A stretch of 34,222 bases of DNA from an uncultured Alphaproteobacteria bacterium (GTDB lineage Bacteria > Pseudomonadota > Alphaproteobacteria > Micropepsales > Micropepsaceae), in the NCBI GenBank assembly GCA_903857685.1, contig CAIOFO010000130.1, forward strand, positions 1 to 34,222, in the 5' to 3' direction. A program made the translations under genes and the position numbers. The first letter of the stretch is position 1; each line of letters opens with the position of its first letter. The notes beneath the pieces are model-generated. The model was not told the DNA's origin, did no database searches, and saw only the letters and a list, made by a program, of their open reading frames with translations. Of the stretch, positions 13,189 through 31,544 are shown in pieces.

Positions 13189-13194
13189 TATAGA
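13189..13194 (+). promoter_or_regulatory. Candidate -10 box for the dehydrogenase/aldolase operon
   Basis: TATAGA lies seven bases before the ATG at 13201, in the 224-base divergent region between the TPP enzyme and the dehydrogenase. No Shine-Dalgarno sequence precedes that ATG, so if this is a true -10 box the message would be leaderless. No convincing -35 hexamer is seen. The remainder of the divergent gap (12977-13188) contains no other gene I can support. Confidence 0.25.
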
Positions 13195-13200
13195 CGATTT

Positions 13201-15152: not shown

Positions 15153-15157
15153 GGCCT

Positions 15158-16210
15158 GTGGAAAATTTTCACGAAGACTGCATGCGTTCTTTGGGCCTGC
15201 GGGGCGCTGTTGCGCTGGAGCCTTTGCGGCATGGCACACTTGTCATCACCGGCGGCAGCGGATTTGTAGGGGCATGGCTGTCAACGCTTTGCGCCTATCT
15301 CAACGACAAGCACAATTTCGGGATTGAACTGGTCCTGACGGCGCGCCGCAAGGCGCGGCTGGACGATAGCGCGCCGCATCTGGCCGGCCGGCGGGATATC
15401 CGCTTTGTCCCCGCCGATATCAGGCAATTCATTGATGTTCCGGCAGCTGCCAGCTGGATCATCCACGCCACCGGCAGCCCCGACAATCGCGCCCATGTCA
15501 GCAATCCCATGGAGACGATGGACGTCATTTCGGCCGGGACCTATCGGGTGCTGCGGACCGCGGAACAATGCCTGAATTTCCGCATGCTGGTGAATCTCAG
15601 TTCGGCGGCGATCTATGGCAGCCAGCCGCCGGAGCTGGATGCGTTGCCGGAAGATTTCATCGGCAGGATTGATCCGGCGACGATGCCTTCGGCTTATGCC
15701 GAGGCCAAGCGTTATGGCGAGGCGCTTTGCGCCAGCGCCCGCAGCCAGTCGCGTACGCCCGTGATCATCGCCCGGCCCTTCACCTTTATCGGCCCGTTTC
15801 AGGCCCTGGATGCCCCCTGGGCGATCAACAATTTCCTGCATGCCGCCCTCAAGCAGCAGCCGCTCAAAATTCAGGGTGACGGCAACACCAGGCGCAGCTT
15901 CCTGTATGGCAGCGACGCGGCCTTTCTGCTGCTCCGCATGCTGGTGAGCGGCACAAATGGCAGCATCTTTAATGTCGGCCACCCGAATGCCATTGCGCTG
16001 AACGAGCTGGCGGCTCTGGTCTTGCGCAAATCGGGCTTGCCGCTGGAAATCAAGACCAATACGGCGGGAGGCCGCGCCGCGACCGCGCATCTGGTGCCGG
16101 ACATGACGCGCGCCAGTCAGGCATTCGAGTTCAAGCCGGCATTTTCGGTCGCGGATTCCGTGGAACGGACATTGGCCTGGCATCGCGCCCGCGCGAAAAT
16201 TGCAGCCTGA
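15158..16210 (+). CDS. Extended SDR, NAD-dependent epimerase/dehydratase or reductase
   Basis: A 350-residue protein with TGGSGFVG (residues 31-38) for NAD binding, LSSAAIYG (147-154) and Y180AEAK184 as the catalytic YxxxK, so it should be active. The GTG at 15158 lies five bases after the aldolase stop; an ATG at 15182 (residue 9, MRSLGLRG) is an alternative. An N-terminal extension of about 25 residues precedes the Rossmann fold. Its place in the operon with the aldolase makes it, together with the SDR after rfbH, a candidate for reducing the ketone left by the TPP reaction. The exact reaction is not readable from the sequence. Confidence 0.85.
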   Translation: MENFHEDCMRSLGLRGAVALEPLRHGTLVITGGSGFVGAWLSTLCAYLNDKHNFGIELVLTARRKARLDDSAPHLAGRRDIRFVPADIRQFIDVPAAASWIIHATGSPDNRAHVSNPMETMDVISAGTYRVLRTAEQCLNFRMLVNLSSAAIYGSQPPELDALPEDFIGRIDPATMPSAYAEAKRYGEALCASARSQSRTPVIIARPFTFIGPFQALDAPWAINNFLHAALKQQPLKIQGDGNTRRSFLYGSDAAFLLLRMLVSGTNGSIFNVGHPNAIALNELAALVLRKSGLPLEIKTNTAGGRAATAHLVPDMTRASQAFEFKPAFSVADSVERTLAWHRARAKIAA

Positions 16211-17875: not shown

Positions 17876-18748
17876 TCATGACAGGCGGATCTCCCTCCCA
17901 TACCGTTCCGCCATCTCTCCGATTTCCATCGGATCATAACCCCAGCGCGCGATGGCGCGATGGGATGACAATATGAAGGAGGATTTGGTCGCGGGCGCCG
18001 GTTCAATCTGCGCCGTGACACCAAGGCCCTGCGCCAGACTTTCGATCACCCGACGTACGGGAAGCGCTCCACGCGCGCCCAGTACTACGGCGTCGAAATC
18101 CGTCCAGGAATGCGCTAGCACCGTGCTTACGAGTCTTGCGATGTCGTCAATGTGCACGGCGTTGTTGAAAGGGCTGTCCAGATGGAAGGCGCGGATCGTT
18201 TTTCTCGCCTTCAGCTTGGTGGCGATGCCGGACAGCCAGTTGCGGTGCGCGCCTGGGCCGAGCACGCCTGGCAGGCGCAGAGACAGGCTGGGAATGCCGG
18301 AGCCACTTACCAGCAATTCGCATTGCCGCTTGCTGGCGCCATAGATATCGGGATTTACGATGGCGGTTTCCTCGTCAAGCAGTGGCGCCGTCACGTCGCC
18401 ATAAAGGGACAGAGAAGAGAAAAAGACAAAGCGTTCCGTTCCCCAGCGCCCGGCTTCCGCCAGCAGCGCCGTCGTGCCGTCGAGATTGTCGCGGACGATC
18501 ATCGCGTCGGTGATGCCGGGCGCAGGCGAGGTGGCCGCTGTATGGACAATCGCTTCGAAAGGCCCTGCCAGCCCGCCCACACTGTCCAGACCCGCCTGTT
18601 CGAGACGGATATTCGCCTGCTTGCGCGCCTGCGCCAGGAAATTCGTTTCGCGGCGAAAAAGCCCCGTGACATCGTGGCCGGCGGACGCCAGCGCGCGGGC
18701 GACAAAGGATCCCGAGAAACCGGAAACACCGGTGACCAGGACCTGCAC
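17876..18748 (-). CDS. Extended SDR, NAD-dependent epimerase/dehydratase
   Basis: A 290-residue protein with TGVSGFSGS (residues 6-14) and Y136GASK140, a complete SDR catalytic set; SSLSLYG carries the Ser. The GTG at 18748 is chosen because it places the Rossmann fold at the N-terminus and lies two bases after the transketolase C-subunit stop; the frame is open upstream only inside that gene. It is the last gene of the long minus-strand operon and ends six bases from the convergent GT-C-like gene. It probably modifies the nucleotide sugar made by this operon; the reaction is unknown. Confidence 0.85.
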   Translation of the reverse strand: MQVLVTGVSGFSGSFVARALASAGHDVTGLFRRETNFLAQARKQANIRLEQAGLDSVGGLAGPFEAIVHTAATSPAPGITDAMIVRDNLDGTTALLAEAGRWGTERFVFFSSLSLYGDVTAPLLDEETAIVNPDIYGASKRQCELLVSGSGIPSLSLRLPGVLGPGAHRNWLSGIATKLKARKTIRAFHLDSPFNNAVHIDDIARLVSTVLAHSWTDFDAVVLGARGALPVRRVIESLAQGLGVTAQIEPAPATKSSFILSSHRAIARWGYDPMEIGEMAERYGREIRLS

Positions 18749-18750
18749 GT

Positions 18751-19662
18751 TCAGGCGACCTTGGCGAGGATTTTCTTGACGGAGATGCCGTGCGCGTCGA
18801 GCAGGTCTTCCCAGGAACCGTAATTGTGGATGAAGGCGTCCTGCAGGCTGAATGTGTCGAGCCGGCATGTTGCCTTGGTGTCCCAGGCGATCTGCTTGGT
18901 GTGGGCCGCAAGGCCGCCCTGGGGCGCATGCTCCTCGATCACGATCACCTGTTTGTGGCTGGCCAACGCCTTGGCGATGCCCACGCGGTCAATCGGCTTC
19001 ATCGTGTGCACCGACACCAGCGAAACCGATTTGCCCTGTTTGGTGAGTTCGTCGGCAACCTGCGCCGCCATGCGGGTGATGACGCCGAAGGTGAGAATGC
19101 AGACGTCCGTGCCGCGGCGCAGATAGCGGATCTTGCCGAATTCCCAGGGCTCGGCGGTCTGGGTGAGGATCGGCTCGCCCGCCTTGCCGATGCGCAGATA
19201 GACCGGGCCGTTCTTCTGCCGGGCGCACCAGCGCGTCGCATCGGTGCATTCCGTCGGATCGCAGGGGGCGACGATCTGCATGTTGGGTATGGCGCCGGCG
19301 ATCGCGATGTCTTCCTGGGTGTGATGCGTTCCGCCCAGGGTGGAATAGATGATGCCCGCGCCCATGCCGACCACTGTGACGGGCAGGTTCTGGTAGCCCA
19401 GATCGTCGCGCACCATCTCAAACGGCCGGTAGAGCGAAAACGTGGCAATGGTATAGGCGAATGGCTGCTTGCCCTTCAGCGCCAGGCCCGCCGCGATGCC
19501 GATCATACTCTGTTCGGCGACACCGACATTGATGAAGCGTTCGGGATATTGGGTGGTGAATTTGGCCATGCTGCCGGCGGGCGAGATATCGGCCACCACC
19601 AGGTAGATGTCGGAATTCTTGGTGGCTTCTTCGTACAGCGCCTCGGAAAAGGTATTTCTCAC
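18751..19662 (-). CDS. Transketolase, C-terminal subunit (split enzyme)
   Basis: A 303-residue protein covering the PYR and C-terminal domains of transketolase. Glu50 in NVGVAEQSM is the Glu that activates TPP; GGTHHTQEDIA and the C-terminal VIEEHAPQGGLA are typical of the split forms. The GTG at 19662 overlaps the N-subunit stop as GTGA, so the two halves are translationally coupled and must assemble. Transketolases move two-carbon ketol groups between sugar phosphates; split versions are frequent in secondary-metabolite and glycan clusters, where they make special sugars. Here it may produce a heptulose or octulose phosphate for the SIS/kinase genes of the same operon. Confidence 0.93.
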   Translation of the reverse strand: MRNTFSEALYEEATKNSDIYLVVADISPAGSMAKFTTQYPERFINVGVAEQSMIGIAAGLALKGKQPFAYTIATFSLYRPFEMVRDDLGYQNLPVTVVGMGAGIIYSTLGGTHHTQEDIAIAGAIPNMQIVAPCDPTECTDATRWCARQKNGPVYLRIGKAGEPILTQTAEPWEFGKIRYLRRGTDVCILTFGVITRMAAQVADELTKQGKSVSLVSVHTMKPIDRVGIAKALASHKQVIVIEEHAPQGGLAAHTKQIAWDTKATCRLDTFSLQDAFIHNYGSWEDLLDAHGISVKKILAKVA

Positions 19663-20486
19663 GTCTGAGCCTCCAGCTCGGCGACGGCCTGGGCATATTC
19701 GGCCTTGTTGGGCGAGCGGTAATGCCACATCGGCACATTCTCCATATAGCTGACGCCCTTGCCCTTGGTGGTCTTGGCCACCACCATGAAGGGCCTGGTT
19801 CCACTGCGGTTCTTCACCGCCTCATAAATCGCCTTGGGGTCGTGGCCGTCCACTTCCACCGTCTCCCAGCCAAAGGCAACGAACTTGTCGGTCAGGGGGT
19901 AGAAGGAGGGGTGGGTTTCCGAGGTGCGGCCCAGGCTCTGGAAATCGTTATTGTCGATGAATGCGACGATGTTGCCCAGCTTGAGCGAGGAGGCCATCAG
20001 GATGGCTTCCCAGGTCGAGCCTTCCTGCACCTCGCCGTCACTGAGCACGGTATAGATGACCCCATCGCGCTTGCTGCCACGTTCCGCCAGCGCCATGCCC
20101 ACCACCATCGACAGGCCGTGGCCCAGCGAACCGGTGGAAGCTTCGATGCCGGGATTGCCGTAATCGGGGTGGGTGCCGAGGATACCCTGCGGCGTGCAAT
20201 ATTCGTCAAGGTCCTTCTTCGAAAGGATGCCGTGATCTTCCAGAATGACGTACTGGATCATGCAGCCATGGCCCTTGGAGATCAGGAATGTGTCGGGCGA
20301 CTTGCCACCGCCGGGGTCGGGCCGCATGAATTCATTGTAAATGGCGTCCACCAGTTCTGTGCAGGAATAGGCGCCTGCGATATGCAGCGCCGAGACATGC
20401 TGGGACATGTCCAGAATGCGGCGGCGGTACTTGGTCGCCCGCGCCTTTGCGATGGCGGGATCGAATTTGCTGTTGCGTAAGTGCAT
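19659..20486 (-). CDS. Transketolase, N-terminal subunit (split enzyme)
   Basis: A 275-residue protein equal to the TPP-binding half of transketolase. SKGHG (residues 70-74), GSLGHGLS (119-126) and LSDGEVQEGSTWEA (148-161) followed by FIDNND form the cofactor and metal site. The ATG at 20486 lies seven bases after the methyltransferase stop, with an AGGCGA-like ribosome site in the gap. It works only with the C-terminal subunit encoded downstream. A housekeeping role is less likely than a dedicated one because the pair sits inside a sugar-nucleotide operon beside SIS isomerase, GmhB-like and HldE-like genes. Confidence 0.93.
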   Translation of the reverse strand: MHLRNSKFDPAIAKARATKYRRRILDMSQHVSALHIAGAYSCTELVDAIYNEFMRPDPGGGKSPDTFLISKGHGCMIQYVILEDHGILSKKDLDEYCTPQGILGTHPDYGNPGIEASTGSLGHGLSMVVGMALAERGSKRDGVIYTVLSDGEVQEGSTWEAILMASSLKLGNIVAFIDNNDFQSLGRTSETHPSFYPLTDKFVAFGWETVEVDGHDPKAIYEAVKNRSGTRPFMVVAKTTKGKGVSYMENVPMWHYRSPNKAEYAQAVAELEAQT

Positions 20487-20493
20487 GGTTCGC

Positions 20494-21150
20494 CTACTCG
20501 ATGATGGTCCAGTAATAATCGCCGGTGTAGCCGGCGTCCTTGAAGACGTCTATCCACTCATGGGGATAGCCGTAGAATTTCGCGGTCAGCACCCAATCCT
20601 CGAACACCGCTTTCTGTTCCGGCGTGCGATATGAATCCACCTGCACGAATGCGCGGCCGCCGGAGACGCGCTGCAACTCCTTCAGCGCACGCACGCAACC
20701 TGCGCGGTCGAAATTGTGAATGGTGTTGAGGCTGATTGCGGCCTTGAAGCTGTTGTCGGGGAAAGGCAGGTCGTCGCCGCTGCCCAGATGCAGCCGGCCA
20801 ATGACTTCGGGCTCGCATTTCATCATGGCGTATTTCGAGATGTCCTGACCGAAAGCTTCCAATCCCGGCAGCGCCTTCATGAAATCCTTGACCAGGAAAC
20901 CCTTGGCGCAGCCGACATCCAATACGCGGTCGCCGGGCTTCAGGTCGAAATGCGCGATCATGTCCTGCGCCACCGGCACCCAGCGCCCGTCATAGCGATA
21001 GCCACCATAACCATATTCGCGTGGCCCATCGAAATACTGTTCGCCATATTCACGGCTGATGCGAATATGCTCGTCCGTCTTGGCGGTGGCGCGGGCGTTC
21101 AAATTGCGCTTGCCCTTGGGCAGCTTGTCGAGAAGATTGACTTCGGCCAT
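20494..21150 (-). CDS. Class I SAM-dependent methyltransferase
   Basis: A 218-residue protein. VLDVGCAKGFLV (from about residue 76) is a clear motif I, followed by FGQDISKYAM and LPFPDNSFKAAIS, the usual second and third motifs of the Methyltransf_11 group. The ATG at 21150 has a strong AGGAG ribosome site five bases upstream, so this start is preferred over the longer frame to 21204. Enzymes of this kind in glycan operons methylate sugar hydroxyls or carboxylates, or a lipid carrier; the substrate is not visible. It stands between the small hairpin gene and the split transketolase. Confidence 0.9.
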   Translation of the reverse strand: MAEVNLLDKLPKGKRNLNARATAKTDEHIRISREYGEQYFDGPREYGYGGYRYDGRWVPVAQDMIAHFDLKPGDRVLDVGCAKGFLVKDFMKALPGLEAFGQDISKYAMMKCEPEVIGRLHLGSGDDLPFPDNSFKAAISLNTIHNFDRAGCVRALKELQRVSGGRAFVQVDSYRTPEQKAVFEDWVLTAKFYGYPHEWIDVFKDAGYTGDYYWTIIE

Positions 21151-21242
21151 GAGGGCTCCTGGGGGCGGAGGGCACCGTTTAAACGCCCATAACGGCGGGC
21201 GCAAGCTTCTATGGGCCGCGGCTCACTTTGAATTGGGCGCGG

Positions 21243-21419
21243 CTAAATATACCCCAGTATTCCCCACCCGATTGCCCCCAATCCGAACAAAATCATCAGG
21301 ACGCAAATGACAACCCCAACCGGCCCCGCCAGCATCAGAGTTCTCCTTTTAGCGGGGAGAGCCAGGCCGTATCGGATTGCCACGAAACACAGACCGAATC
21401 CAACCAGGATGTAGAGCAT
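21243..21419 (-). CDS. Small hypothetical membrane hairpin protein (58 residues)
   Basis: This small frame lies in the 339-base gap between the methyltransferase and the SDR-like gene (21151-21489). It starts at an ATG at 21419 and ends with TAG. Residues 1-22 and 29-58 are two strongly hydrophobic segments joined by a basic loop (AKRRT), which predicts a helical hairpin with the loop in the cytoplasm. An AGGCGG stretch upstream could serve as ribosome site. No family is recognised. Support is the consistent hydrophobicity, which a chance frame in GC-rich DNA would rarely show, and the correct strand for the operon. Nothing else is evident in the rest of the gap. Confidence 0.5.
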   Translation of the reverse strand: MLYILVGFGLCFVAIRYGLALPAKRRTLMLAGPVGVVICVLMILFGLGAIGWGILGYI

Positions 21420-21489
21420 TGCCGCCGCCTGCTTTTCATGTAGCCCGCTGCGGGGCTCAAGCTAACCGCACCATGGGACGCGCGCGCTG

Positions 21490-22416
21490 TCAATCCGGCG
21501 CCGGAATTCTGGAATTTCCCCTCGGTGTTAAGAGGCCCGCCTGAACTTCCCGATGCACACGCTTCAGACCCGTTGCCAGCGCCTCGTATTTAAAATCCGG
21601 GAAGGATTTGTAAGCGTCAGTGATGTCGAAGAAGCGGTGCAGCAAATGCGGCCTGGGACCGGGGCGCGGCACCAGTTCGATCCTGGCCGGCGGGCCAAAT
21701 TCGCCCGCCACGATCCGGGCGATGTCGTGAAAGGATGTGGCGACGCCGGTAACGGCGTTCAGCACGCCGCTGCTGCCATGCAGAAGAATTCTCACCACCA
21801 GCCTGGCGACATCCTCCACCGCGACATGATCGCGCTTTTCTTCGCCCTCGCCGAATAAGCCGATTGGCTCGCCTTTGGCGGCCAGCTTGCGGAAGCGATT
21901 GGGACCATAGCCGGAATGGGGATCGCCGGCGCCGTAAATAAGGGTGGGGCGCAGGATGGCGAAGGGACCCTTGTACTCGCTGCGGAACATAAGCTCGCGC
22001 GCCACGTGCATCAGGCCATGCGTGGTGGAGGGCGCCACCGGCGAGCGTTCCGTCACCGGGGTGGCGTCATCGGCATAAACCGCGTCCGAACTGATATAGA
22101 TGAGATGGGCGGGCGGCACGGCGGCGAAGGCGGCGATGGCGGCTTCACCCATGCGCAGATTGGTCATGACCTGCGCCGCATTCTTGGCGGGAGCGATGGC
22201 AGAGACGAACACCACCGCGTCGTCCGGCTTCAACAGCGCCGCCAGCGCCTCTCCGCTGCCTGCCGACAAAAGGTCGGCGTCCTTGCGCGTGATTCCCAAG
22301 GCCGGGATATTGGCCTTCTGAATTTCCTTCAGGATGGCACCGCCGACAAAGCCGCCCGCGCCTATGACAACGGCGCGCTTGGGAATGACGGGTTTTTCGT
22401 GAGCGTGAGCAAGCAT
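21490..22416 (-). CDS. SDR-like NAD(P)-binding protein lacking the catalytic Tyr and Lys
   Basis: A 308-residue protein with the extended SDR layout: GAGGFVGG (residues 19-26), ISSDAVYADD (108-117) and a C-terminal substrate domain. At the place of YxxxK it reads H133-G-L-M-H137, so both catalytic residues are replaced by His although the flanking ARELM region is conserved. It therefore may not do ordinary hydride chemistry; it may bind a nucleotide sugar, act as a partner subunit, or use a different mechanism. Its start overlaps the upstream dehydrogenase-like stop by one base (TGATG). The fold assignment is good; the function is unknown. Confidence 0.82.
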   Translation of the reverse strand: MLAHAHEKPVIPKRAVVIGAGGFVGGAILKEIQKANIPALGITRKDADLLSAGSGEALAALLKPDDAVVFVSAIAPAKNAAQVMTNLRMGEAAIAAFAAVPPAHLIYISSDAVYADDATPVTERSPVAPSTTHGLMHVARELMFRSEYKGPFAILRPTLIYGAGDPHSGYGPNRFRKLAAKGEPIGLFGEGEEKRDHVAVEDVARLVVRILLHGSSGVLNAVTGVATSFHDIARIVAGEFGPPARIELVPRPGPRPHLLHRFFDITDAYKSFPDFKYEALATGLKRVHREVQAGLLTPRGNSRIPAPD

Positions 22417-23684
22417 CAGGCGACACCCAGCAGCCGGTGATCCAGGCCCGCCGCCTTGGCCTTGGCGGGATCGAGAACGCGATAGGGATCGAGCACGGTC
22501 TTGCCCGCCATGGCTCCCGCGATGGCGGCGGGATCGAGCTTTTTGAATTCGGGCCAGGGCGTCATGATGGCAAGGGCATCGGCGCCTTTCACGGCGTCCA
22601 GCGCCGAAGGCGCGCCGGTGACATTGGGATGCGGCGCGGCGCTGGCCGGCACCACCGGATCGAATACCGTCAGCGGCCAGGGCGCCAGATGGCGGATCAG
22701 CGCCAGCGACGGTGAGTTTTTCACCGAATGGGTATTTTCCTTGTAGGCAAGCCCCAGCACCGCCAGCCTAGCATCCGGCTTTCGAGCCAGCACCAGCTCA
22801 TGAAGGGTCCTTAGGGCCCAGTCCTTGCGATGCTTGCTGCTCGCGACAAAGGCTTTGATCAGGCCGGCATCAGTGCCGTATTCCTCGGAAAAGCGGATGA
22901 CGGTGGCCAGGTCCCGCTCCAGGTTGCCGCCCGCCAGGCCCAGGCCGGGGGAAAGGTACGAATAGGCACCGATGCGCTTGTCCAGCTTGAGGGCGGGGGC
23001 GATTTCCGACCAGTCCGCCCCAATCCGTTCGCACAGCTCCGCCAGGGTGTTGGCCACGGTCACAGAGGCCACCAGACAGCAATTGATGGAGATTTTGGTC
23101 AATTCGGCGCTCTCGAACCGCATGGGCAGCAGCGGGCAGCCAAAAGCCTCCAGATAGGCCCTGAGAGCCGGGGGCAGGGTGACGCCGTCAGGGGCGCCCA
23201 CAATGAACCGTTCAGGCTGCGTGGCCCTCTCGACCGCCCGGCCGAAGACCAACGTCTCCACTTGGTAATAGAGCTGACGGCCCTGGCGCTGGCGGGCACG
23301 GGTGTAGCCCGGGGGGACCTGGCTCAGCACCACGACCACCGCATCCGGACGCGTGTTGGCCAGAACCAGTTCCAGCAGGCTGTCGAGCCCCGAAAGGTCG
23401 CTGCCGCCCATATCGTCGGTGGGCACATCGGGCGCAATATAAACCACGTCGCAATCCCTGAGCCGGGCGGGGTCGCTGGTGAAAGCCATGTGATCGCGAT
23501 TGGCGGCCAGCATGTCGTCCAGGTCCGGCTCGACCACGGGCAGTTTGCCCTGCTCCAGCCGGGCGACCAGCGCGGGGTCGGTGTCGAATCCCAGCATGGG
23601 GAAACCCTTGCTGGAGCCGCCGACGGACGAGCACAAGCCCAGATGCGTCATGCCCGCATAGGCGATCTTCGGTTTGCTGCTCAT
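22416..23684 (-). CDS. UDP-glucose/GDP-mannose dehydrogenase family protein lacking the catalytic Cys
   Basis: A 422-residue protein with the three domains of nucleotide-sugar 6-dehydrogenases. Lys197 and Asn201 (ELTKISIN) match the conserved active-site pair. The segment that normally reads PGxGFGGSCFPKD is PGLGLAGGNLERD (residues 246-258), so the nucleophilic Cys needed for the second oxidation is Asn254. The NAD loop is also unusual, GMTHLG in place of GxGYVG. The enzyme may stop at the aldehyde, perform a reversible oxidation (as in epimerisation), or have another task. It is tightly coupled at both ends: ATGA overlap with the Gfo/Idh gene upstream and TGATG with the SDR-like gene downstream. 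Confidence 0.87.
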   Translation of the reverse strand: MSSKPKIAYAGMTHLGLCSSVGGSSKGFPMLGFDTDPALVARLEQGKLPVVEPDLDDMLAANRDHMAFTSDPARLRDCDVVYIAPDVPTDDMGGSDLSGLDSLLELVLANTRPDAVVVVLSQVPPGYTRARQRQGRQLYYQVETLVFGRAVERATQPERFIVGAPDGVTLPPALRAYLEAFGCPLLPMRFESAELTKISINCCLVASVTVANTLAELCERIGADWSEIAPALKLDKRIGAYSYLSPGLGLAGGNLERDLATVIRFSEEYGTDAGLIKAFVASSKHRKDWALRTLHELVLARKPDARLAVLGLAYKENTHSVKNSPSLALIRHLAPWPLTVFDPVVPASAAPHPNVTGAPSALDAVKGADALAIMTPWPEFKKLDPAAIAGAMAGKTVLDPYRVLDPAKAKAAGLDHRLLGVA

Positions 23685-24610
23685 GCCGGTTTGGAACTCG
23701 CTTCTTCGGAAAGCTTGCCCAGCACCCGCTGCAGCCAGCGGTCCTGGGACAGATCGGCCGGCGTTTTGGCCGCGACCAGATTTCTGAAATGCTCATATTC
23801 CAGCGTCCAGGTGGGGTCTTCCTGGGTCAGGGTGACGGCGGCTTCGGGCGGCCGCCCGCTGGGCAATATCCGGGTGCGGTGGGTAAAGGTGGTGGGACCC
23901 CATTTGCACAGGGATTCAATATGGGCGGTGCCTTTTTCGGCGAAAATATCGCAGGTGAAATGATTGCGCCAGTTCAGCAGCGTCATTTCCAGTTCCAGCG
24001 CCGGTGACGAAGACTGGGAATCGATCACCACATGGTCGGGGGCGCGATTCTCGAAACGGCTGGCCGAGACCAGGCGGAAATCCTCGCCGATATCGCCGAA
24101 CCAGAAGCGCGCCGTGTCCAGCAGGTGCGAGCCCAGGTCGGGCAACACGCCGGCGCCCTTGTCGCGCCATTCCGAATTGCGCACCAGGCGGGCCGTGCCG
24201 TTGCCGTAGAACATGCGGCAGCGGTAGATTTTTCCCAACGCGCCCGAGGCGATCAAATCACGCATCCGCACATAGTGCGGCTCGAAGCGGTGATTGTAGG
24301 CGGTGTAGCAGACAGCGCCGGTCTTGCGCGCCATGGTTTCCACTTCGGTCAGTTCCGCTTCATTCTCGGCATGCAGCGGTTTTTCGATCAGGGCGTGCTT
24401 GCCGTGCTGGAAGAGGTGGCGAAGAATCGCCATCTTGGGCGCATCGGGGGTGCAGACCAGCGCCGCGTCATAGCGGTCCAGCGGCACGTCCGTAATCTCT
24501 TTCCAGGTCGCTTCCGGGGCAACGGGATCCACGATGCCGGCGGCATCATCGCCGGCGATGCGAAGCCGCTTCTTGCCCTGAACTCCGTATCCGACGATGA
24601 CGACCTTCAT
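23681..24610 (-). CDS. Gfo/Idh/MocA-family oxidoreductase
   Basis: A 309-residue NAD(P)-dependent sugar oxidoreductase. GYGVQG (residues 7-12) is the dinucleotide loop, EKP (76-78) carries the catalytic Lys region, and DLGSHLLD (157-164) supplies the His/Asp of the active site. In nucleotide-sugar pathways such enzymes oxidise or reduce C-3 (for example WlbA-type) or act on other positions. It starts eight bases after the HldE-like gene and overlaps the next gene by four bases. Together with the dehydrogenase-like and SDR-like genes it probably alters an activated sugar made upstream in the operon. Confidence 0.9.
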   Translation of the reverse strand: MKVVIVGYGVQGKKRLRIAGDDAAGIVDPVAPEATWKEITDVPLDRYDAALVCTPDAPKMAILRHLFQHGKHALIEKPLHAENEAELTEVETMARKTGAVCYTAYNHRFEPHYVRMRDLIASGALGKIYRCRMFYGNGTARLVRNSEWRDKGAGVLPDLGSHLLDTARFWFGDIGEDFRLVSASRFENRAPDHVVIDSQSSSPALELEMTLLNWRNHFTCDIFAEKGTAHIESLCKWGPTTFTHRTRILPSGRPPEAAVTLTQEDPTWTLEYEHFRNLVAAKTPADLSQDRWLQRVLGKLSEEASSKPA

Positions 24611-24618
24611 TCACGGCC

Positions 24619-26175
24619 TCAGCTATAGTGAATGAGACGCTCGAACCGGGCGAGCTTGTCGAGCATGTCCTTGGGCCGCACCGGAACATTGCCTTCATGC
24701 TCGCATTCGATGGCGGCAGAGAAGGACCCCAGTGCCGAGGCGATGATGCTGTTTTTCGTGACATAGAGCGCCAGGGCTGCATAGGCCAGCAGCGCATCGC
24801 CGGAGCCCACCGCGTCAATCACTTTTTCCGCAAAGCTGTCCAGGGTCACGAAAGCGCGGACGTCTTCGTCTTTCTTGGGAACGGAGCGGAAGGTGAGGAG
24901 GCCGCGTTCGCCCAGCTTGAGGATCAGGGTTTTGCAGCCGGCTTCCTTGTACAGCTTCAGCCCCAGCGGCCGCACCACCGAATCCTGGTCGCCCAGGGCA
25001 AAGCGCGCTTCGCGCTCATTGGGGGTGATCAGGTCGAAGCCGTAGAATTCCAGGATATTGCCCCAGCGGGTGGCGACCTGGCTGTCGGCAACACGGAAGA
25101 CGCCCTCCGGAATGGCCTTGGTCAGGAGCGGAATCGTATCGCGATTGAAAATGCCGTGGCGGAAATCACTGAACACCACGATATCGGCCTTTACCTCGGT
25201 GATGCGCTTGGCCAGCTCCGCCAGAATTTTCTCGGAAATGGAACGGTTGTCGAGCGTGTCGATTTTCAGAAGGTTATAGCCGCCCGCCATGATGGCGTTC
25301 TTGTTGGTGGTGGGGCGAGTGGAATCGATGATGGGCTCGCACTTCACGCCCGCCTCTTCCAGGTCCTTGATGGCGAATTTGCCCAGGGCATCGTCGCCCA
25401 GCACGGTTGAGAAGGTGACGTTTGCGCCCGCGGCATGCAGATGCTTGGCGACAATGCCGGCGCCGCCCACGAAATCGCGCTTGTTTTCCATGCGCACGCT
25501 CATGGTCGGCGTCTTGGTCATGCCGCCGATCAGCACGGTGTGGGTGTAGCTGTCCACAATCAGGTCGCCGATCACATGCACCTTGATGCCCTGGAATTTG
25601 TCCAGGGTGCTGCGCAGATCGCCCAGGGTGAGATTTTCGCCTTCCAGCAGCGCCATCAGCTTTTCGGTGGCGATGCTGGGCGCTTCGGTTTCAATAATGT
25701 TGGACGAGGAATAAACGATGTCGCCCGGCGTGAAAAGAATTTCGCCGCCATAGCTTTCGACGGTGGCTTTTTCCTCGGCGGTCTTGGGGTGCAGGCCGTT
25801 GCTGGTATATTCATAGCCCTTGGCGAAATAATCGGGCTTGATGATCGCCAAATTCTGCAGCGGGGTGGGCTCCTTGTCGATCACCACATAGTCCACCGCT
25901 TCCAACGCCGCCAGGTTGAAGGCGCGCAGTTCCTGCGGGACATAGGGGCGGAAATTGGCCTTGGTGATGTGTTCGTCGCCGGTCAGGCTGGCCACCAGAA
26001 TGTCCCCCTTGCTCTTGGCATAGAGCAAGTGCCGGATATGGCCGGGATGCACCACGTCAAATGTGCCGTGGCACATGATGACCTTCTTGGCGCGGGGCGG
26101 CGCACCGATCGTGGCGGCAATCTGCTCCGCCGTCTTGATCTTGTGGCTGACGATTTTCTTGCTGCCTTCGTCCAT
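24619..26175 (-). CDS. Bifunctional nucleotidyltransferase-PfkB kinase, HldE-like with reversed domain order
   Basis: A 518-residue fusion. Residues 30-165 are a cytidylyltransferase-like domain with CHGTFD and H43PGH46; residues 196-518 are a PfkB sugar kinase with GGAG (237-240), TPNE (384-387) and DAVGSGD (454-460), where the last Asp is the catalytic base. E. coli HldE has the kinase first and the adenylyltransferase second; here the order is reversed. The expected chemistry is phosphorylation of a sugar phosphate at C-1 and, after removal of the other phosphate by a GmhB-like enzyme, transfer of a nucleotide. The ATG at 26175 lies five bases after the preceding SDR stop. The partners, SIS isomerase and phosphatase, are in the same operon. 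Which sugar and which nucleotide are used cannot be read. Confidence 0.9.
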   Translation of the reverse strand: MDEGSKKIVSHKIKTAEQIAATIGAPPRAKKVIMCHGTFDVVHPGHIRHLLYAKSKGDILVASLTGDEHITKANFRPYVPQELRAFNLAALEAVDYVVIDKEPTPLQNLAIIKPDYFAKGYEYTSNGLHPKTAEEKATVESYGGEILFTPGDIVYSSSNIIETEAPSIATEKLMALLEGENLTLGDLRSTLDKFQGIKVHVIGDLIVDSYTHTVLIGGMTKTPTMSVRMENKRDFVGGAGIVAKHLHAAGANVTFSTVLGDDALGKFAIKDLEEAGVKCEPIIDSTRPTTNKNAIMAGGYNLLKIDTLDNRSISEKILAELAKRITEVKADIVVFSDFRHGIFNRDTIPLLTKAIPEGVFRVADSQVATRWGNILEFYGFDLITPNEREARFALGDQDSVVRPLGLKLYKEAGCKTLILKLGERGLLTFRSVPKKDEDVRAFVTLDSFAEKVIDAVGSGDALLAYAALALYVTKNSIIASALGSFSAAIECEHEGNVPVRPKDMLDKLARFERLIHYS

Positions 26176-26180
26176 AATCT

Positions 26181-27185
26181 CTAGCTCGCGGCGGATAGCG
26201 ATTTGAACCAGACTTCCGTCGCCTTGGCGATGGAGGCCGGGTCCCACAGCGGCGCATCGCGCCAGTAATCGATCTGGTCCAAGATGCGGCGGACGCCATC
26301 CTCGAAGGTAATCTGCTGCTTCCAGCCCAGATCGCGCTGGATTTTGGCGATGTCGGCCCAGGTGCAATCCGGCTCGCCCGGGCGTTTGGGAATATAGGTC
26401 ACTTCGCCGCCCAGCAGTTCGACCAAGCGATTGACCGACTGCGGATTGCCCGCGCCCAGATTCCACACTTCCCCGGTCTTGCCGGTTTCGGCGGCCAGGC
26501 GAAATGCCTCGGCGACATCACGGGCAAACAGGAAATCGCGTCTCTGGCTGCCATCGCCCACCACGGTAAAGGGCTTGCCGGCCAGTTTCTGCTTCAGGAA
26601 AACTCCGAATACCGCGCCATAGGCGCCCGAGGTGCGCGAGCGGGTGCCATAGGCATTGAAGATGCGGATCGAATTGACCGGCAGGTGATAGACCTTGTGC
26701 CAGTGAAAGGCCGCCTGCTCGCCTTGGTATTTGCTCAGCGCATAGGGATATTCGGGCGTGATGGGATGGTCTTCCCTGGTGGGAACCGAAGCCAGGCCGT
26801 AGCAGGACGATGAGGCGGCATAGACGAATTTCTTCACCCCGGCATGGCGCGAACATTCCAGCATGTGGACGGTGCCCTGCACATTGGCGGACATGTACTC
26901 CATCGGATGCTCAATCGAGGGAACGATGTCGCCGATGCCGGCAAAATGGATGACATAATCCACGCCTTCGAACAGTTTGTTGCCGGGCTGATAGCTGCGA
27001 ATGTCGGATTCGGCAAATTCGAAACCGGGACTGGATTTGTGATGGGCGATATTAGCCTCACGCCCACCCACCAAATTGTCGATCACGCGGACGCGATATC
27101 CATTGTCCACCAGGACATCAACCATATGGCTGCCAATGAAGCCCGCGCCGCCGGTGACGATGGCGGTTTTACCCTTGCCGCTCAT
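26181..27185 (-). CDS. Extended SDR, UDP-glucose 4-epimerase-like
   Basis: A 334-residue protein with TGGAGFIGSH (residues 11-20), SSSCYG (125-130), Y148ALSK152 and the late GDGSQRRDF motif, the full set of GalE/RfbB-type extended SDRs. It is expected to epimerise or dehydrate a nucleotide sugar using bound NAD+. The start overlaps the stop of the next SDR gene by four bases (ATGA), and the HldE-like gene follows five bases after its stop. In this operon the natural substrate would be the activated heptose-like sugar and not necessarily UDP-glucose. Confidence 0.92.
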   Translation of the reverse strand: MSGKGKTAIVTGGAGFIGSHMVDVLVDNGYRVRVIDNLVGGREANIAHHKSSPGFEFAESDIRSYQPGNKLFEGVDYVIHFAGIGDIVPSIEHPMEYMSANVQGTVHMLECSRHAGVKKFVYAASSSCYGLASVPTREDHPITPEYPYALSKYQGEQAAFHWHKVYHLPVNSIRIFNAYGTRSRTSGAYGAVFGVFLKQKLAGKPFTVVGDGSQRRDFLFARDVAEAFRLAAETGKTGEVWNLGAGNPQSVNRLVELLGGEVTYIPKRPGEPDCTWADIAKIQRDLGWKQQITFEDGVRRILDQIDYWRDAPLWDPASIAKATEVWFKSLSAAS

Positions 27186-28189
27186 TTCGCGCCAATCTTC
27201 TTCATCGTGCGGACATTGTAGTACCAGTCGTCATCAAAGCTGTTGGGCATCAAATGATTGCGGAAGGCGCGGGCCAGGTCGCGCACCGCATCTTCCAGAT
27301 TGCGCTTGGGGGCGAAGCCCAGCACCCGGCGTACCTTGTCGGAATTGACATGATAGGAACGATTGTCGTTGCTGGGGGTGGTGACGATCTCGATATCGCC
27401 CAACTCCGGCATTTCCTGTTCGACGACCTTCTTCACGATTTTCGCGATGTCGGCAATGGAATGATTCTGGAAGGCGATGTTGAAGACTTCGCCCTGGATT
27501 TTCTCGGCCGGGGCTTCCAGCATCATCACATAAGCGTCCACCATATCCTCGATATGCAGGTTGGGACGCATCTGGTCGCCGCCGAACACCGTGATCTTGC
27601 CCTTGTTGACGGCATGATTGGTCAGGATGTTGACCGACAAGTCGAGGCGGGTGCGCGGGCTGTAGCCGCAAAGGGTGGCGGGGCGGATCACGGTGCAGAC
27701 GAAATCATCGGATTTGTGCTTCCACAGCAGCGGCTCACACATACCCTTGAACTTGTTGTAGAGGGTGAGGGGCAGCAGCGGATGCTCCTCGGTGACGTCG
27801 GGCGAGTTGCTGACGCCATACACCGAACTGGACGAGCAATAGACGAAACGCTTCACGCCGGCCTTTTTGGCGGCGATCACCATGGGCTCGAAACAGTCGA
27901 AATTGACGGTCTCCGACAACTTCTCGTCGAGCTCGAAGCTGGCATCGTTGGAGATGCAGGCCAGATGCAGCACGGCATCCTGGCCCTTGAGCAGTCCGGC
28001 CAGCATGGCGGTGTCGCGGATATCGCCGTCAATGATGCGCAAATTGGGATCGTTGGGCATCCGCGCGCCATACCAAAGCTTGTCCACGACGGTCACCTTG
28101 TAACCCAGCGACAATAGCCGCGGCGTGAGGACATGGCCGACATAACCGGCGCCGCCGGTCACAAGCACGTTCGTAAGTTTGGAAGTCAT
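27182..28189 (-). CDS. Extended SDR, NAD-dependent epimerase/dehydratase
   Basis: A 335-residue protein with TGGAGYVGH (residues 11-19), SSSSVYG (119-125) and Y144NKFK148 as the catalytic YxxxK. The sequence is related to nucleotide-sugar epimerases that act at C-4 or C-6 side chains. The ATG at 28189 has a GGAG ribosome site at the right distance; an in-frame GTG three codons earlier would bury that site. It overlaps the following SDR gene (ATGA), so two different SDRs are made together. A 96-base gap (28190-28285) separates it from the transaldolase-like gene; no feature is evident there. Confidence 0.9.
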   Translation of the reverse strand: MTSKLTNVLVTGGAGYVGHVLTPRLLSLGYKVTVVDKLWYGARMPNDPNLRIIDGDIRDTAMLAGLLKGQDAVLHLACISNDASFELDEKLSETVNFDCFEPMVIAAKKAGVKRFVYCSSSSVYGVSNSPDVTEEHPLLPLTLYNKFKGMCEPLLWKHKSDDFVCTVIRPATLCGYSPRTRLDLSVNILTNHAVNKGKITVFGGDQMRPNLHIEDMVDAYVMMLEAPAEKIQGEVFNIAFQNHSIADIAKIVKKVVEQEMPELGDIEIVTTPSNDNRSYHVNSDKVRRVLGFAPKRNLEDAVRDLARAFRNHLMPNSFDDDWYYNVRTMKKIGAK

Positions 28190-28285
28190 ATTCTCCACCA
28201 GATTGATAATAGGTTTTGATGCACCGGCTGCCTATGCATGAGCAATGGGCGGCCAAGGAAGTTTATCGGGACGGATCGTGTTCCT

Positions 28286-29032
28286 TCACGCCCCCTGATC
28301 GGCCGCAACCGGAATGCTGAAGCCCGCGGCGGTCGCGTCCTTGTAGAACATTGCCACCGTCTCGCGCGAATAAAGGTCAAGATCCTTGGCGGCCAGCGAC
28401 AGTTTCTTGATCAGATCGTTGGTGATGGTGATGATATGGCAGCCGATCTCGTCCGCCTGATAGATATTGAGGGCTTCGCGCGGGCTTGCCCAAAGCAGCT
28501 CGGCCCTGGGCCGAGGCTTCATGATGGCCAGGGCTTCGCGCATGAGGGGCACGGGATCGCGGCCGGTGTCGGCGATACGTCCGGCAAACACCGAAATGAT
28601 GGCCGGCACTTTTTCCGACAGCGCATCGGTGACACGCCCAACCTGGTCGTTGGTCATCAGGGCGGTGACGTTCAGCTTCACGCCGTCGCGCGACAGTTGC
28701 GAGATCAGCGGACCGGCAAAGTCGCCCTTGGTGTTGGTCACCGGAATCTTGACATAGACATTGTTGCCCCAGGACGCGATCTCGCGGGCCTGCTCCTGCA
28801 TGGTGGGAAAATCGTCGGCAAACACTTCGAAGGACACGGGAAGGACGGTGATCGCCTTCAGCACCTGCTGGGCGAAGCCCTTGTAATCGCTGATGCCGGC
28901 CTGGCGCATGAGGGTGGGATTGGTGGTGAAGCCCTTGACCAGCGGATTGGTGGTCTGGTCCAGCATGCCTTTGAGGTCGGCGCCGTCCGCGAAAATCTTG
29001 ATGCGTAGCCGGTCGGCCGTGATGTTAACCAT
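28286..29032 (-). CDS. Transaldolase family protein
   Basis: A 248-residue (beta/alpha)8 protein. FADGADL (residues 14-20), GFTTNPTLM (34-42) and VYVKIPVT (92-99) are the transaldolase signatures, with Lys95 as the Schiff-base residue and Asp16 as the acid/base. Length lies between fructose-6-phosphate aldolase (about 220) and classical transaldolase (about 320). It should move a dihydroxyacetone unit or catalyse a related aldol reaction on sugar phosphates. The ATG at 29032 has an AAGGGA ribosome site. Its presence with a split transketolase in a sugar-nucleotide operon suggests custom construction of a ketose phosphate. Confidence 0.88.
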   Translation of the reverse strand: MVNITADRLRIKIFADGADLKGMLDQTTNPLVKGFTTNPTLMRQAGISDYKGFAQQVLKAITVLPVSFEVFADDFPTMQEQAREIASWGNNVYVKIPVTNTKGDFAGPLISQLSRDGVKLNVTALMTNDQVGRVTDALSEKVPAIISVFAGRIADTGRDPVPLMREALAIMKPRPRAELLWASPREALNIYQADEIGCHIITITNDLIKKLSLAAKDLDLYSRETVAMFYKDATAAGFSIPVAADQGA

Positions 29033-29074
29033 ATTCCCTTACCCCTTGATTTCTTTGGCCCGCCCCGGCCTCTT

Positions 29075-29605
29075 TTAGGCACATTCTATTATAAAGGAAA
29101 CGGCTTCGGGAAGGGAACGAACTGTCCGGTCCGGCTGGTGCGGACCCTCCTGGAAATGGCCGTAATCCACGAAAATTGTGCGGCACCCTGCCGCAAGGCC
29201 GGCCTGGGTGTCGCGCCAGCGATCCCCCACCATGAAGCTGGCGCCAAGGTCGATATCGAGTTCCCTGGCAGCCTCGAGCAGCATGCCGGGCAGGGGCTTG
29301 CGGCAGGCGCAATTGTCCTTATCGGTATGGAAGCAGGCCTTGATCGCGTCGAGCGGCATCTTCTCACGTAGGAGATCGTGCATTGCCTCGACGGTGGCGA
29401 GCGGTGTCCGGCCTGTGGCCACATCCGGCTGGTTGGTCACCACCACGATTGTGAAGCCCGCCGCCTTGAGTTTGGTTACTGCATCCACCACACCGGGCAA
29501 CAGGCGGAACTCCGCCAAGCTGGTCGGTGCGACCTGTTTTCCGTCCCGTTCGATATTGGCATTCAGCACACCATCACGATCCAGAAAGACCGCGCGGTTC
29601 ACCAT
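29075..29605 (-). CDS. HAD-IIIA phosphatase, D,D-heptose 1,7-bisphosphate phosphatase-like (GmhB type)
   Basis: A 176-residue protein with Asp9 and Asp11 in FLDRDGVLN as nucleophile and acid, VTNQPDVATG (56-65) as the second motif, MVGDRWRD as the last acidic motif, and Cys91, His93, Cys99 and Cys101 as the zinc site typical of GmhB and HisB-N. GmhB removes the 7-phosphate from heptose 1,7-bisphosphate between the two HldE reactions. The ATG at 29605 overlaps the upstream SIS gene stop by seven bases; a GTG at 29602 (GTGA overlap) is equally possible. The longer frame upstream lies in the SIS gene and does not resemble the family. Confidence 0.92.
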   Translation of the reverse strand: MVNRAVFLDRDGVLNANIERDGKQVAPTSLAEFRLLPGVVDAVTKLKAAGFTIVVVTNQPDVATGRTPLATVEAMHDLLREKMPLDAIKACFHTDKDNCACRKPLPGMLLEAARELDIDLGASFMVGDRWRDTQAGLAAGCRTIFVDYGHFQEGPHQPDRTVRSLPEAVSFIIECA

Positions 29606-30162
29606 TTCGTGGCGGTCTGCTGCAGCTTGGGGTGGGAGACAAGGCAGTGCCAGACTACCGCCTGGAAGGCTTCGGAATGGGCCGTGACCCGTTCCGCCGC
29701 CACGGTGGGAATCACCACCACGCAATCGCCGACTTTCTTGGTGTAGCCGCCATCGCGCCCGACGATGCCAAGAATGCGGGTGCCACGGGATTTCGCTTCC
29801 TGGAGTCCCGCCACGATGTTGGGGCTGACATTGCGCTCCAGGTCGCCGCCGCCCACCGATAAGACCAGCACGGCGTCATCGGAATCGGCGCGGCTGACCT
29901 TGAGCCAGCCGGAGAACACGGTGGCCCAGCCCTCATCATTGGTGCGCGCGGTCAGTTCGGAAACATTGTCGGTGGGTGCATAGGCTTCGATGCCGCAGAG
30001 CTTGCGGAAATCATTGACGGCGTGCGCGCAATTCGCGGCGCTGCCGCCGACGCCCAGGAGAAAAAGCCGGCCCTTGCGGTCGCGCAGCGCCACCAGTTCG
30101 TCGCACAGCGCTTCGACAGCATCCGCCGGAATGGCGGTTGCGATTTTGCCGACTTCGTCCAT
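29599..30162 (-). CDS. SIS-domain sugar-phosphate isomerase, GmhA-like paralogue
   Basis: A 187-residue SIS protein from the ATG at 30162. GVGGSAANCAHAVNDFRK and VLSVGGGDLERNVS are the two phosphate-binding loops; the sequence belongs to a GmhA-related group distinct from the canonical GmhA encoded at 32619-33209. It would turn a ketose phosphate into an aldose phosphate. The start is uncertain: the frame is open to a TTG at 30261 (220 residues), but the ATG fits the usual short N-terminus; neither has a clear ribosome site. It heads the long minus-strand operon and is followed directly by the GmhB-like gene, so isomerisation and dephosphorylation are probably in one pathway. Confidence 0.85.
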   Translation of the reverse strand: MDEVGKIATAIPADAVEALCDELVALRDRKGRLFLLGVGGSAANCAHAVNDFRKLCGIEAYAPTDNVSELTARTNDEGWATVFSGWLKVSRADSDDAVLVLSVGGGDLERNVSPNIVAGLQEAKSRGTRILGIVGRDGGYTKKVGDCVVVIPTVAAERVTAHSEAFQAVVWHCLVSHPKLQQTATKW

Positions 30163-30389: not shown

Positions 30390-31544
30390 ATGAAAAAAGC
30401 GCTCATCATTGGCGGGGGCGCCGCCGGTTGTTCAGCGGCTCATCAACTGGCGCTTCAGGGCGGCTGGGACGTCACCCTGGTGGAACGCTCCCCGATTCTG
30501 GGTGCGGGTCTTCGCACCAACTGGTTCGGCGGCCATCCCTACACGTTCGGCCCCCGGCATTTCCTGACACAGAATCGCGCCGTCTATGACTATATGAACG
30601 GGATTTGTCCGCTGCGGTCCTGCGCCGACCACCAATTCATCACCTATGTCGAGCGCGATAACGCCTTCTACAATTATCCCATCCATGAGGATGATATCGC
30701 GGCCATGCCCGATCGCGACAAGATCAACCAGGAACGCAAAATGGCGGTGGGCGCGGCCGAAGCCAAAAATCTGGAAGATTACTGGATCAATTCCGTGGGC
30801 CGGACGTTGTATGAAAAATTCATCGACCAGTACAACAAGAAGATGTGGCTGGTGGACGACAACAAGAAAATCGACACTTTCAACTGGTCGCCCAAGGGCG
30901 TGAACATCAAGAGTGGTCCGCGCGCCGCCTGGGACACGGCCTATTCCGCCTACCCCTATGCGCCCGACGGCTATAACCACTTTTTCGATTTCACCGTGGC
31001 CGGTACCAAGGTGTTGCTCTCAACGGCAATCGAAAAATTCGACCTGGAAGGCAGCGCCGTCTGGATCAAGGGCGAAAAGCACAGCTACGACATTCTGATC
31101 AACACCGTCTCACCCGATCTGCTGTTCGGGCAATGTTATGGGGAGTTGCGTTTCATCGGGCGCGACTTTCACAAGATTGTTTTCCCGACCGAGCATGTAT
31201 TTCCGGAGCATGTCTATTTTCTCTATTACGCCAATGACGAGAGCTTCACGCGCCTGGTCGAATACAAGAAAATGACCCATCACAAATCGCCAACGACGCT
31301 GGTGGGCATGGAAATCCCTTCCCTGAACGGCCGGCACTATCCGCTGCCATTCCAGAAGGACATCAAGCTCGCGGACAAATATTTTGCCGACATGCCGGGC
31401 AATGTCTATTCCACCGGCCGGGCCGGCAGTTATCGCTATGGCCTGGATTTCGACGATTGCATCGAGCAGGCCATGATCATGGCCCATCAGATCAAGGAAG
31501 GCGGGCGCGACCATCCGGTGCCGATGGAGATCTGGCGCAAATAA
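30390..31544 (+). CDS. UDP-galactopyranose mutase-like flavoprotein (GLF family)
   Basis: A 384-residue protein. IIGGGAAGCSAA (residues 6-17) binds FAD; the C-terminal YSTGRAGSYRYG with DDCIEQAM matches the GLF signature. The mutase converts pyranose to furanose forms of nucleotide sugars. In UDP-galactopyranose mutases an N-terminal segment reads GPHIFHT; here it is GPRHFLTQ, so the His near the flavin is displaced, suggesting a related but different substrate. The gene is monocistronic, divergent from the heptose-type operon and convergent with the FkbM gene. No galactose-specific genes are near, so a furanose form of the operon's own sugar is a possibility. Confidence 0.85.
   Translation: MKKALIIGGGAAGCSAAHQLALQGGWDVTLVERSPILGAGLRTNWFGGHPYTFGPRHFLTQNRAVYDYMNGICPLRSCADHQFITYVERDNAFYNYPIHEDDIAAMPDRDKINQERKMAVGAAEAKNLEDYWINSVGRTLYEKFIDQYNKKMWLVDDNKKIDTFNWSPKGVNIKSGPRAAWDTAYSAYPYAPDGYNHFFDFTVAGTKVLLSTAIEKFDLEGSAVWIKGEKHSYDILINTVSPDLLFGQCYGELRFIGRDFHKIVFPTEHVFPEHVYFLYYANDESFTRLVEYKKMTHHKSPTTLVGMEIPSLNGRHYPLPFQKDIKLADKYFADMPGNVYSTGRAGSYRYGLDFDDCIEQAMIMAHQIKEGGRDHPVPMEIWRK

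Follow-up and report, generated by a model that had tools for sequence, protein, structure and literature searches.

In the biosynthesis of lincomycin and celesticetin, LmbR, a putative transaldolase, is reported to form an octulose with ribose 5-phosphate as the acceptor (PMC5854111), and the GDP-octose is processed by LmbM, LmbL, CcbZ and CcbS (PMC12945683). For miharamycin and amipurimycin, it has been proposed that split-gene transketolases attach a hydroxyacetyl group to a keto-sugar (PMC12247030); the review that describes these enzymes knows of 13 putative sequences, which all come from Streptomycetes and none of which, by its account, has been tested in vitro. Branching in the systems of YerE, AviB1/AviB2 and Pau11/Pau12 relies on a thiamine diphosphate (ThDP) enzyme, which joins a carbon unit to a keto-sugar; reduction of the carbonyl follows (PMC12247030, PMC4753412). 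The genes for bradyrhizose, an O-antigen sugar of photosynthetic Bradyrhizobium, are given as unknown in a study according to which ORS285 gdh mutants lack this sugar and gdh belongs to an 11-gene cluster, a polar effect not being excluded (PMC4743980). Here we compare with these systems an operon of 13 neighbouring genes found in a 34,222-nucleotide stretch of DNA (the window) that is the whole of a contig, CAIOFO010000130.1 (C130), in the 3.0-Mb genome (completeness 100%, contamination 2.08%) of an uncultured alphaproteobacterium of the family Micropepsaceae.

An earlier note on this DNA had listed a split transketolase, a transaldolase, an SIS isomerase, a GmhB-like phosphatase and an HldE-like fusion, followed by SDR, Gfo/Idh and dehydrogenase-like proteins and a methyltransferase, and all these gene types are indeed encoded at 17876-30162, on the minus strand. 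The reading that we favour, at a probability of roughly 0.6 as judged from the sequences, is that the operon is a mobile surface-polysaccharide module that would make a heptose or octose activated by a nucleoside diphosphate (NDP) and would then have it branched by the modified split transketolase. In general terms, a pathway for a higher NDP-sugar with late ThDP-dependent branching is the most likely function of these genes.

A survey for conservation of the gene set, as the earlier note suggested, recovered the core in 28 of the 384 other genomes of the class (fusion at 57% identity or more, three hits being fragments; the sample of 385 included the source genome) and in 80 loci of named genomes, which are the best 80 of at least 555 relatives. 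Counts over the 80 loci or over the 45 long ones refer to these named loci, a locus being long if the fusion is flanked by 9 kb or more in both directions; genes were called at 35% identity or more. The named loci are labelled Bradyrhizobium, Tardiphaga, Azospirillum and Skermanella, along with bins labelled Acidobacteria, Verrucomicrobia, Nitrospirae, Omnitrophota, Chlamydiae and others; the bin labels may be wrong (L066, for instance, is titled Acidobacteria). The operon of L069, titled Frankia sp. RB7, is near-identical to the Bradyrhizobium ones, and its label is probably wrong. The long loci contain the Gfo/Idh and UGDH-like genes without exception (45 each), SDR1 and SDR2 in 44 each, the methyltransferase in 41, the transaldolase (TAL) and SDR3 in 37 each, SIS in 33, GmhB in 32, the transketolase (TK) pair in 25, SDR4 in 11 and a UDP-galactopyranose-mutase-like (UGM-like) gene in 8; across all 80 loci, some of which are short, TAL is found in 65, the GmhB-like gene in 57 and SIS in 53. 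The clustering of the operon is more than chance, the core orthologues being co-located in many other genomes, and its recurrence in both surveys rules out an artefact of a single assembly. The class and named sets share contigs (e.g. L036/L075, L037/L073, L047/L092, L051/L121, L058/L094), so that counts over the joint set (the TK motif, the UGDH Cys, the SDR YxxxK rows and the gene after the TK pair) include doubly counted contigs, and related genomes are not independent, which makes the p values below guides.

The genes of the operon, their conservation, the changes in their active sites and the exchange of one ThDP enzyme for another are matters of observation, and the genes fall into two modules. 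In the long loci, TAL goes with SIS (both 33, TAL only 4, SIS only 0, neither 8; p 2e-6) but shows no association with TK (both 20, TAL only 17, TK only 5, neither 3; p 0.72). In the map order, TAL is preceded among the operon genes by GmhB or SIS in 31 of 37 loci, and the N-terminal TK subunit by the methyltransferase in 18 of 25. Co-occurrence and map order therefore place TAL with assembly and activation and TK with tailoring. The claim of the earlier note that the operon assembles and activates a higher sugar holds, as the best reading, for TAL, SIS, GmhB and the fusion.

The acceptor site of the operon transketolase differs from that of the housekeeping enzyme. The closest solved relatives of its N- and C-terminal subunits (TKN and TKC) are the subunits of the Carboxydothermus split transketolase (6yak, 6yaj), and the catalytic core is present, with the SDG motif, an Asn, a conserved His and the Glu of GVAEQ, residues whose roles we assume; the ThDP residues are kept in TKN, with SDG replacing GDG. 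The acceptor motif of the genome's own transketolase, THDSIGVGEDGPTHQ, retains a His and an Asp that we take to be the equivalents of E. coli His461 and Asp469, binding the phosphate and a hydroxyl of the acceptor, whereas both are lost from the operon TKC, MGAGIIYSTLGGTHH. Over the joint set, the His is replaced by Gly in 46 of 46 rows and the Asp by Leu in the 44 readable ones, the other two rows, from one contig, having an unread letter at that position. The TKC of the bradyrhizose cluster reads VGAGLAYSGLGPTHH in 9 of 9 rows, and the catalytic Glu and the second His are retained in both groups of rows. One locus, L143, has two split-transketolase pairs, 59/56% and 40/31% identical to that of the window.

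Three ThDP superfamilies with ketone acceptors are named in the review cited above, namely TK, E1-like (alphaKADH2) and YerE-like decarboxylases (PMC12247030), and all three are met at these loci. At least one ThDP ligase lies in 39 of the 45 long loci versus 0 of 20 rmlB control loci of the same class (Fisher p 8e-12; the controls comprise 16 of 24 places over the cut-off plus 4 below it, 8 near contig ends being excluded, and include one stretch of 11.9 kb). Broken down by type, 23 loci have TK only, one TK and E1, one TK and ALS, seven E1 only, two E1 and ALS, five ALS only and six none, so that 14 of the 20 TK-less loci carry an E1-like pair, a YerE/ALS-like gene or both. The E1-like alpha/beta pairs adjoin core operons that have no split transketolase (e.g. 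L042 14839-16897 and L084 17853-19915), and two pairs checked by Pfam gave E1_dh and Transket_pyr/Transketolase_C. The absence of TK from 20 of 45 loci, the presence of another ThDP ligase in 14 of these and the altered motif together point to late branching as the probable role of the transketolase. In the 45 TK loci of the joint set, TKC is followed by SDR4 in 19, by a DegT-like gene in 9, by neither in 16 and by the contig edge in one, and never by both; the DegT-like calls are weak RfbH matches, one of which was checked by Pfam. The carbonyl left by the TK step could thus be reduced (SDR4) or aminated (DegT-like).

Sites in the oxidoreductases of the operon were compared as well. Where GGSCFPKD of 4a7p has its catalytic Cys, all 95 rows of the UGDH-like protein in the joint set have Asn, so that this protein does not match UDP-glucose 6-dehydrogenase, which is recognised by the Cys of GGxCxPKD. 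Since this Cys is missing, the usual oxidation to an acid is unlikely, and a one-step oxidation to a ketone is likely. Of the 76 SDR3 rows, at least 58 have HGxMH at the YxxxK position and another 9 have YGxMH; YxxxK is retained in nearly all rows of SDR1 and SDR2 and in the SDR4 rows shown.

A pathway can be drawn from these genes; what each enzyme acts on, how long the carbon chain is, which nucleotide is used, in what order the steps run and what is formed at the end are all our inference. TAL would move a C3 unit from fructose 6-phosphate or sedoheptulose 7-phosphate onto an aldose phosphate, most likely ribose 5-phosphate, to give octulose 8-phosphate; SIS would convert the ketose phosphate to an aldose phosphate, the PfkB domain of the fusion would phosphorylate C1, the GmhB-like phosphatase would remove the terminal phosphate, and the nucleotidyltransferase domain would make the NDP-sugar. 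Epimerisation and oxidation to a keto-sugar may then be carried out by SDR1, SDR2, the Cys-less UGDH-like protein and the Gfo/Idh protein, after which the modified split transketolase would add a hydroxyacetyl (C2) group to the ketone, creating a tertiary alcohol. Finally, the new carbonyl would be reduced by SDR4 and the sugar methylated by the methyltransferase, for a product of some 9-11 carbons that may be branched or, like bradyrhizose, cyclised.

Table 1. Operon genes in their order from position 30162 downward, and the neighbouring UGM-like gene
Feature	Coordinates	Strand	Remarks
SIS-domain isomerase	29599..30162	-	distant from GmhA; predicted ketose-phosphate to aldose-phosphate isomerase
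GmhB-like HAD-IIIA phosphatase	29075..29605	-	predicted to remove terminal phosphate
Transaldolase (TAL)	28286..29032	-	TIGR02134, 365 bits against a cut-off of 282
SDR1	27182..28189	-	epimerase-like, YxxxK kept; 44% identity to bradyrhizose-cluster SDR
SDR2	26181..27185	-	epimerase-like, YxxxK kept
Reversed HldE-like fusion	24619..26175	-	nucleotidyltransferase, then PfkB sugar-phosphate kinase
Gfo/Idh/MocA oxidoreductase	23681..24610	-	present in 79/80 named loci
UGDH-like	22416..23684	-	nucleotide-sugar dehydrogenase homologue, Asn for catalytic Cys (GGNLERD)
SDR3	21490..22416	-	sugar-epimerase family, degenerate YxxxK
SAM methyltransferase	20494..21150	-	41% identity to bradyrhizose-cluster methyltransferase
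TKN	19659..20486	-	split transketolase, N-terminal ThDP-binding subunit, SDG for GDG
TKC	18751..19662	-	split transketolase, C-terminal subunit, altered acceptor motif MGAGIIYSTLGGTHH, catalytic Glu kept
SDR4	17876..18748	-	YxxxK kept; predicted reductase of carbonyl after transketolase step
UGM-like flavoprotein	30390..31544	+	divergent UDP-galactopyranose-mutase-like; possibly system member

The genes are spaced by -7 to 96 bp throughout, except for the 339 bp between SDR3 and the methyltransferase; this sole large gap (21151-21489) contains a short membrane-like reading frame on the minus strand. Promoter and terminator scans gave sites no more numerous than in shuffled sequences. Copies of the UGM-like gene with 76% identity lie beside five Bradyrhizobium-type operons (L067-L070, L072).

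The first half of the operon is likely to work like the octose synthesis of lincomycin, a likeness drawn to the pathway as described and not to the Lmb sequences. A dedicated transaldolase, an isomerase, a kinase, a phosphatase and a nucleotidyltransferase, the set of the lincosamide-type octose pathway, are all present, and Lys95, Asp16 and Arg152 of TAL are conserved in the alignment with solved transaldolases. The two systems are alike in transaldolase, isomerase, phosphatase and nucleotidyltransferase, followed by epimerase, dehydrogenase and one further enzyme (PMC12945683, PMC5854111). On the lincomycin and celesticetin side the enzymes are LmbR, LmbN, LmbP, LmbK, LmbO, LmbM, LmbL and LmbZ, of which we take LmbP to be the kinase and LmbZ to be a Gfo/Idh protein. 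The kinase and the nucleotidyltransferase are, however, a single PfkB/cytidylyltransferase-type fusion in the operon (domains PfkB and CTP_transf_like, which may or may not be of the same families as LmbP and LmbO, respectively). Furthermore, the operon has no aminotransferase, adds the split transketolase and the methyltransferase, and lies in a surface-polysaccharide setting, whereas lincomycin is an antibiotic. Compared with the transketolases of miharamycin and amipurimycin, the operon enzyme is encoded among surface-sugar genes in bacteria whose labels span many phyla; from this enzyme YerE, AviB1/AviB2 and Pau11/Pau12 differ in belonging to other ThDP superfamilies and using 2-oxo acid donors, and YerE acts on a dideoxyhexose instead of a higher sugar.

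For the bradyrhizose cluster, the published gdh primers served as a guide: among 265 genomes of the genus to which G385 (L067, Bradyrhizobium) belongs, 13 matched the forward primer with at most 3 mismatches, and in the 9 of these that were fetched both primer sites lie about 380 bp apart, the stated amplicon being 300-400 bp (PMC4743980). At one such locus, L165, eleven genes form a run: fusion, NTP_transferase, SDR1, GmhA-type SIS, gdh, TKN, TKC, Zn-alcohol dehydrogenase, an unknown gene, an APH-like gene and methyltransferase. Five of the eleven have clear homologues in the operon (identity to the window: fusion 31%, SDR1 44%, TKN 41%, TKC 37%, methyltransferase 41%), and the reversed fusion and the altered TK acceptor motif are shared. 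No clear operon counterpart exists for the other six, namely the 4,6-dehydratase-like gdh, the Zn-alcohol dehydrogenase, the NTP_transferase, the APH-like and unknown genes and the GmhA-type SIS; conversely, none of the nine bradyrhizose loci has a match to TAL, Gfo/Idh or the UGDH-like protein. Bradyrhizose has ten carbons, and its hemiacetal rings form via the hydroxyls at 4, 5 or 9 (PMC9912281); a C7 sugar, a C2 unit from the transketolase and a methyl group would account for the ten.

Altered transketolases also occur outside these loci. The phylum of G652 (locus L138, titled Acidimicrobiaceae) has matches in 167 of 396 genomes, and of the 29 best-scoring split TKCs from these (the operon row L194 and the DXP-synthase-like row L195 being set aside) 22 keep the His and the Asp and 7 have lost the His, with the Asp changed to Leu in 5 and to Glu in 2. 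Neighbourhoods were compared for all 7 altered and 13 of the 22 canonical split TKs, several contigs being short. Of the four TKs with the motif YxxLG, three (L225, L226, L228) lie beside homologues of RfbF (50-52%) and RfbH (49-58%) and the fourth, L229, beside bradyrhizose-type genes; L229 is a short contig from another phylum with homologues of the methyltransferase, split TK, APH-like and unknown genes of that cluster. None of the 13 canonical split TKs that were fetched lies beside RfbF/RfbH or bradyrhizose-type genes. Because of the RfbF/RfbH neighbours, and given that the known YerE acceptor is CDP-4-keto-3,6-dideoxyglucose (PMC12247030), a keto-sugar acceptor fits the altered TKs, and a transketolase version of yersiniose-type branching is possible for L225, L226 and L228.

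A special kinship between the operon and bradyrhizose TKs was considered and abandoned: a first tree grouped them against two outgroup rows (99/96, with a long-branch warning), and fuller trees did not make them sisters. These unrooted trees (the window and 9 operon loci, 3 bradyrhizose, 7 altered and 12 of the 22 canonical TKs, and L065; some rows are long) place 12 canonical and 21 non-canonical rows on opposite sides of one branch (99/94 for the C half, 97/93 for the N half).

Several of these facts weigh against the favoured reading or its wider form. TAL is missing from 8 of the 45 long loci and from all 9 bradyrhizose loci, and therefore an octose is no general answer; none of the three ThDP types is in range in 6 of the 45, and the TK pair is absent from 20, so hydroxyacetyl branching is not common to all. 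Three of the altered TKs (L227, L230, L231) have no sugar genes of the kinds searched nearby. In the fuller trees the operon TKs and those of the bradyrhizose cluster do not form sister groups, which lowers our confidence in a pathway defined by a shared type of transketolase, and the bradyrhizose TKN is as close to canonical split TKs (40-45% identity) as to that of the window (41%), so that the shared motif alone links the two. The broader proposal, that of a widespread pathway in which a remodelled split transketolase would add hydroxyacetyl to a nucleotide-bound keto-octose or keto-heptose to yield C9-C11 branched or carbocyclic surface sugars, with bradyrhizose arising by the same type of transketolase and E1-like or YerE-like enzymes interchangeable with it, accordingly remains tentative, at somewhat less than even odds.

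Among the alternatives, the strongest concerns chain length, which the favoured reading leaves open and with which it therefore overlaps: TAL would top up sedoheptulose 7-phosphate, SIS and the fusion would make an NDP-heptose, and branching would follow, for a C7+C2(+C1) sugar such as can be drawn for bradyrhizose. The HldE/GmhB-type activation enzymes agree with this version, as does the bradyrhizose cluster with its GmhA-type SIS, split TK, homologous methyltransferase and lack of any TAL match. Yet sedoheptulose 7-phosphate should already come from the housekeeping transketolase and transaldolase, and a dedicated TAL tightly linked to SIS, together with an SIS far from GmhA, suggests another substrate; we regard the heptose version as a real contender, although one with the odds against it. 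The model of the earlier note, in which TK and TAL jointly assemble a non-standard ketose phosphate that is isomerised and activated, with no branching, could explain why both lie in one gene run over and above the housekeeping copies. It is nevertheless unlikely: TK is optional (absent from 20 of 45 loci) and independent of TAL and SIS, TKN follows the methyltransferase (18/25) whereas TAL adjoins GmhB or SIS (31/37), the acceptor motif is altered, and other ThDP ligases appear in 14 of the 20 TK-less loci, so a role of transketolase as a helper in ketose-phosphate assembly is not supported.

Ordinary synthesis of ADP-L-glycero-D-manno-heptose for the lipopolysaccharide core, for which the GmhB-like and HldE-like domains and the lack of another HldE-like gene in the genome at the thresholds used could be adduced, is very improbable and is rejected here because of score cut-offs, domain order and patchy distribution. 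For its isomerase, kinase, phosphatase and nucleotidyltransferase steps the HldE/GmhA/GmhB pathway shares its superfamilies with the operon. The HldE-like fusion and the SIS isomerase of the earlier note are both there, with the qualifications that the fusion has its nucleotidyltransferase first, the reverse of HldE, and scores 159.5 bits against the HldE cut-off of 521, and that SIS is far from GmhA (47.9 bits against 209.45); in addition, the operon has an extra TAL, the TK and oxidoreductases, and the UGDH-like, Gfo/Idh and TK proteins would be of no use to ADP-heptose synthesis. The four same-genus genomes listed have no fusion match at E<=1e-20, unlike what is expected of a core gene, and for the same reason an acquired locus fits. 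The transketolase and transaldolase of the operon are not the sole genomic copies, which was one of the conditions that the earlier note had set together for a refutation of its proposal: a second, full-length transketolase lies on C99 and a second transaldolase on C151 of the same genome.

Elsewhere in the genome, the search with the kinase family returned the fusion and one weak partial match, no other HldE-type protein being found at these thresholds, and GmhA-family matches are limited to the operon SIS and a GmhA-like isomerase gene at 32619-33209. The latter scores 195.8 bits, slightly under the cut-off of 209.45, in a genome in which no canonical HldE was found. The remainder of the contig consists largely of surface-sugar genes. 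Positions 5652-16210 encode RfbF, CDP-glucose 4,6-dehydratase, RfbH, an acylating acetaldehyde dehydrogenase and a 4-hydroxy-2-oxovalerate aldolase, as well as an ALS/YerE-like ThDP enzyme at 11171-12976 (minus strand). ErwE is reported to prefer donors such as 4-hydroxy-2-oxopentanoate (PMC12247030). Since this compound is the product of the aldolase encoded there, the region may make a second C4-branched sugar, similar to erwiniose or caryophyllose, whose donor would be produced locally.

The earlier note held the product to be undescribed, and none of the papers listed by a search mostly outside subscription journals treats the operon; the early logic is, however, known from the lincomycin octose and part of the gene set from the bradyrhizose cluster. 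If the proposed pathway is correct, the altered motif would help to recognise from sequence those transketolases that may accept ketones, which are untested in vitro according to a 2025 review (PMC12247030), and transketolase would join the known means of branching surface sugars. A possible route would also be opened to exotic higher sugars such as bradyrhizose. With some 100 loci seen (partly on shared contigs), including records that bear the names of Bradyrhizobium, Azospirillum and Skermanella strains, the product of this operon may be a common, overlooked surface sugar.

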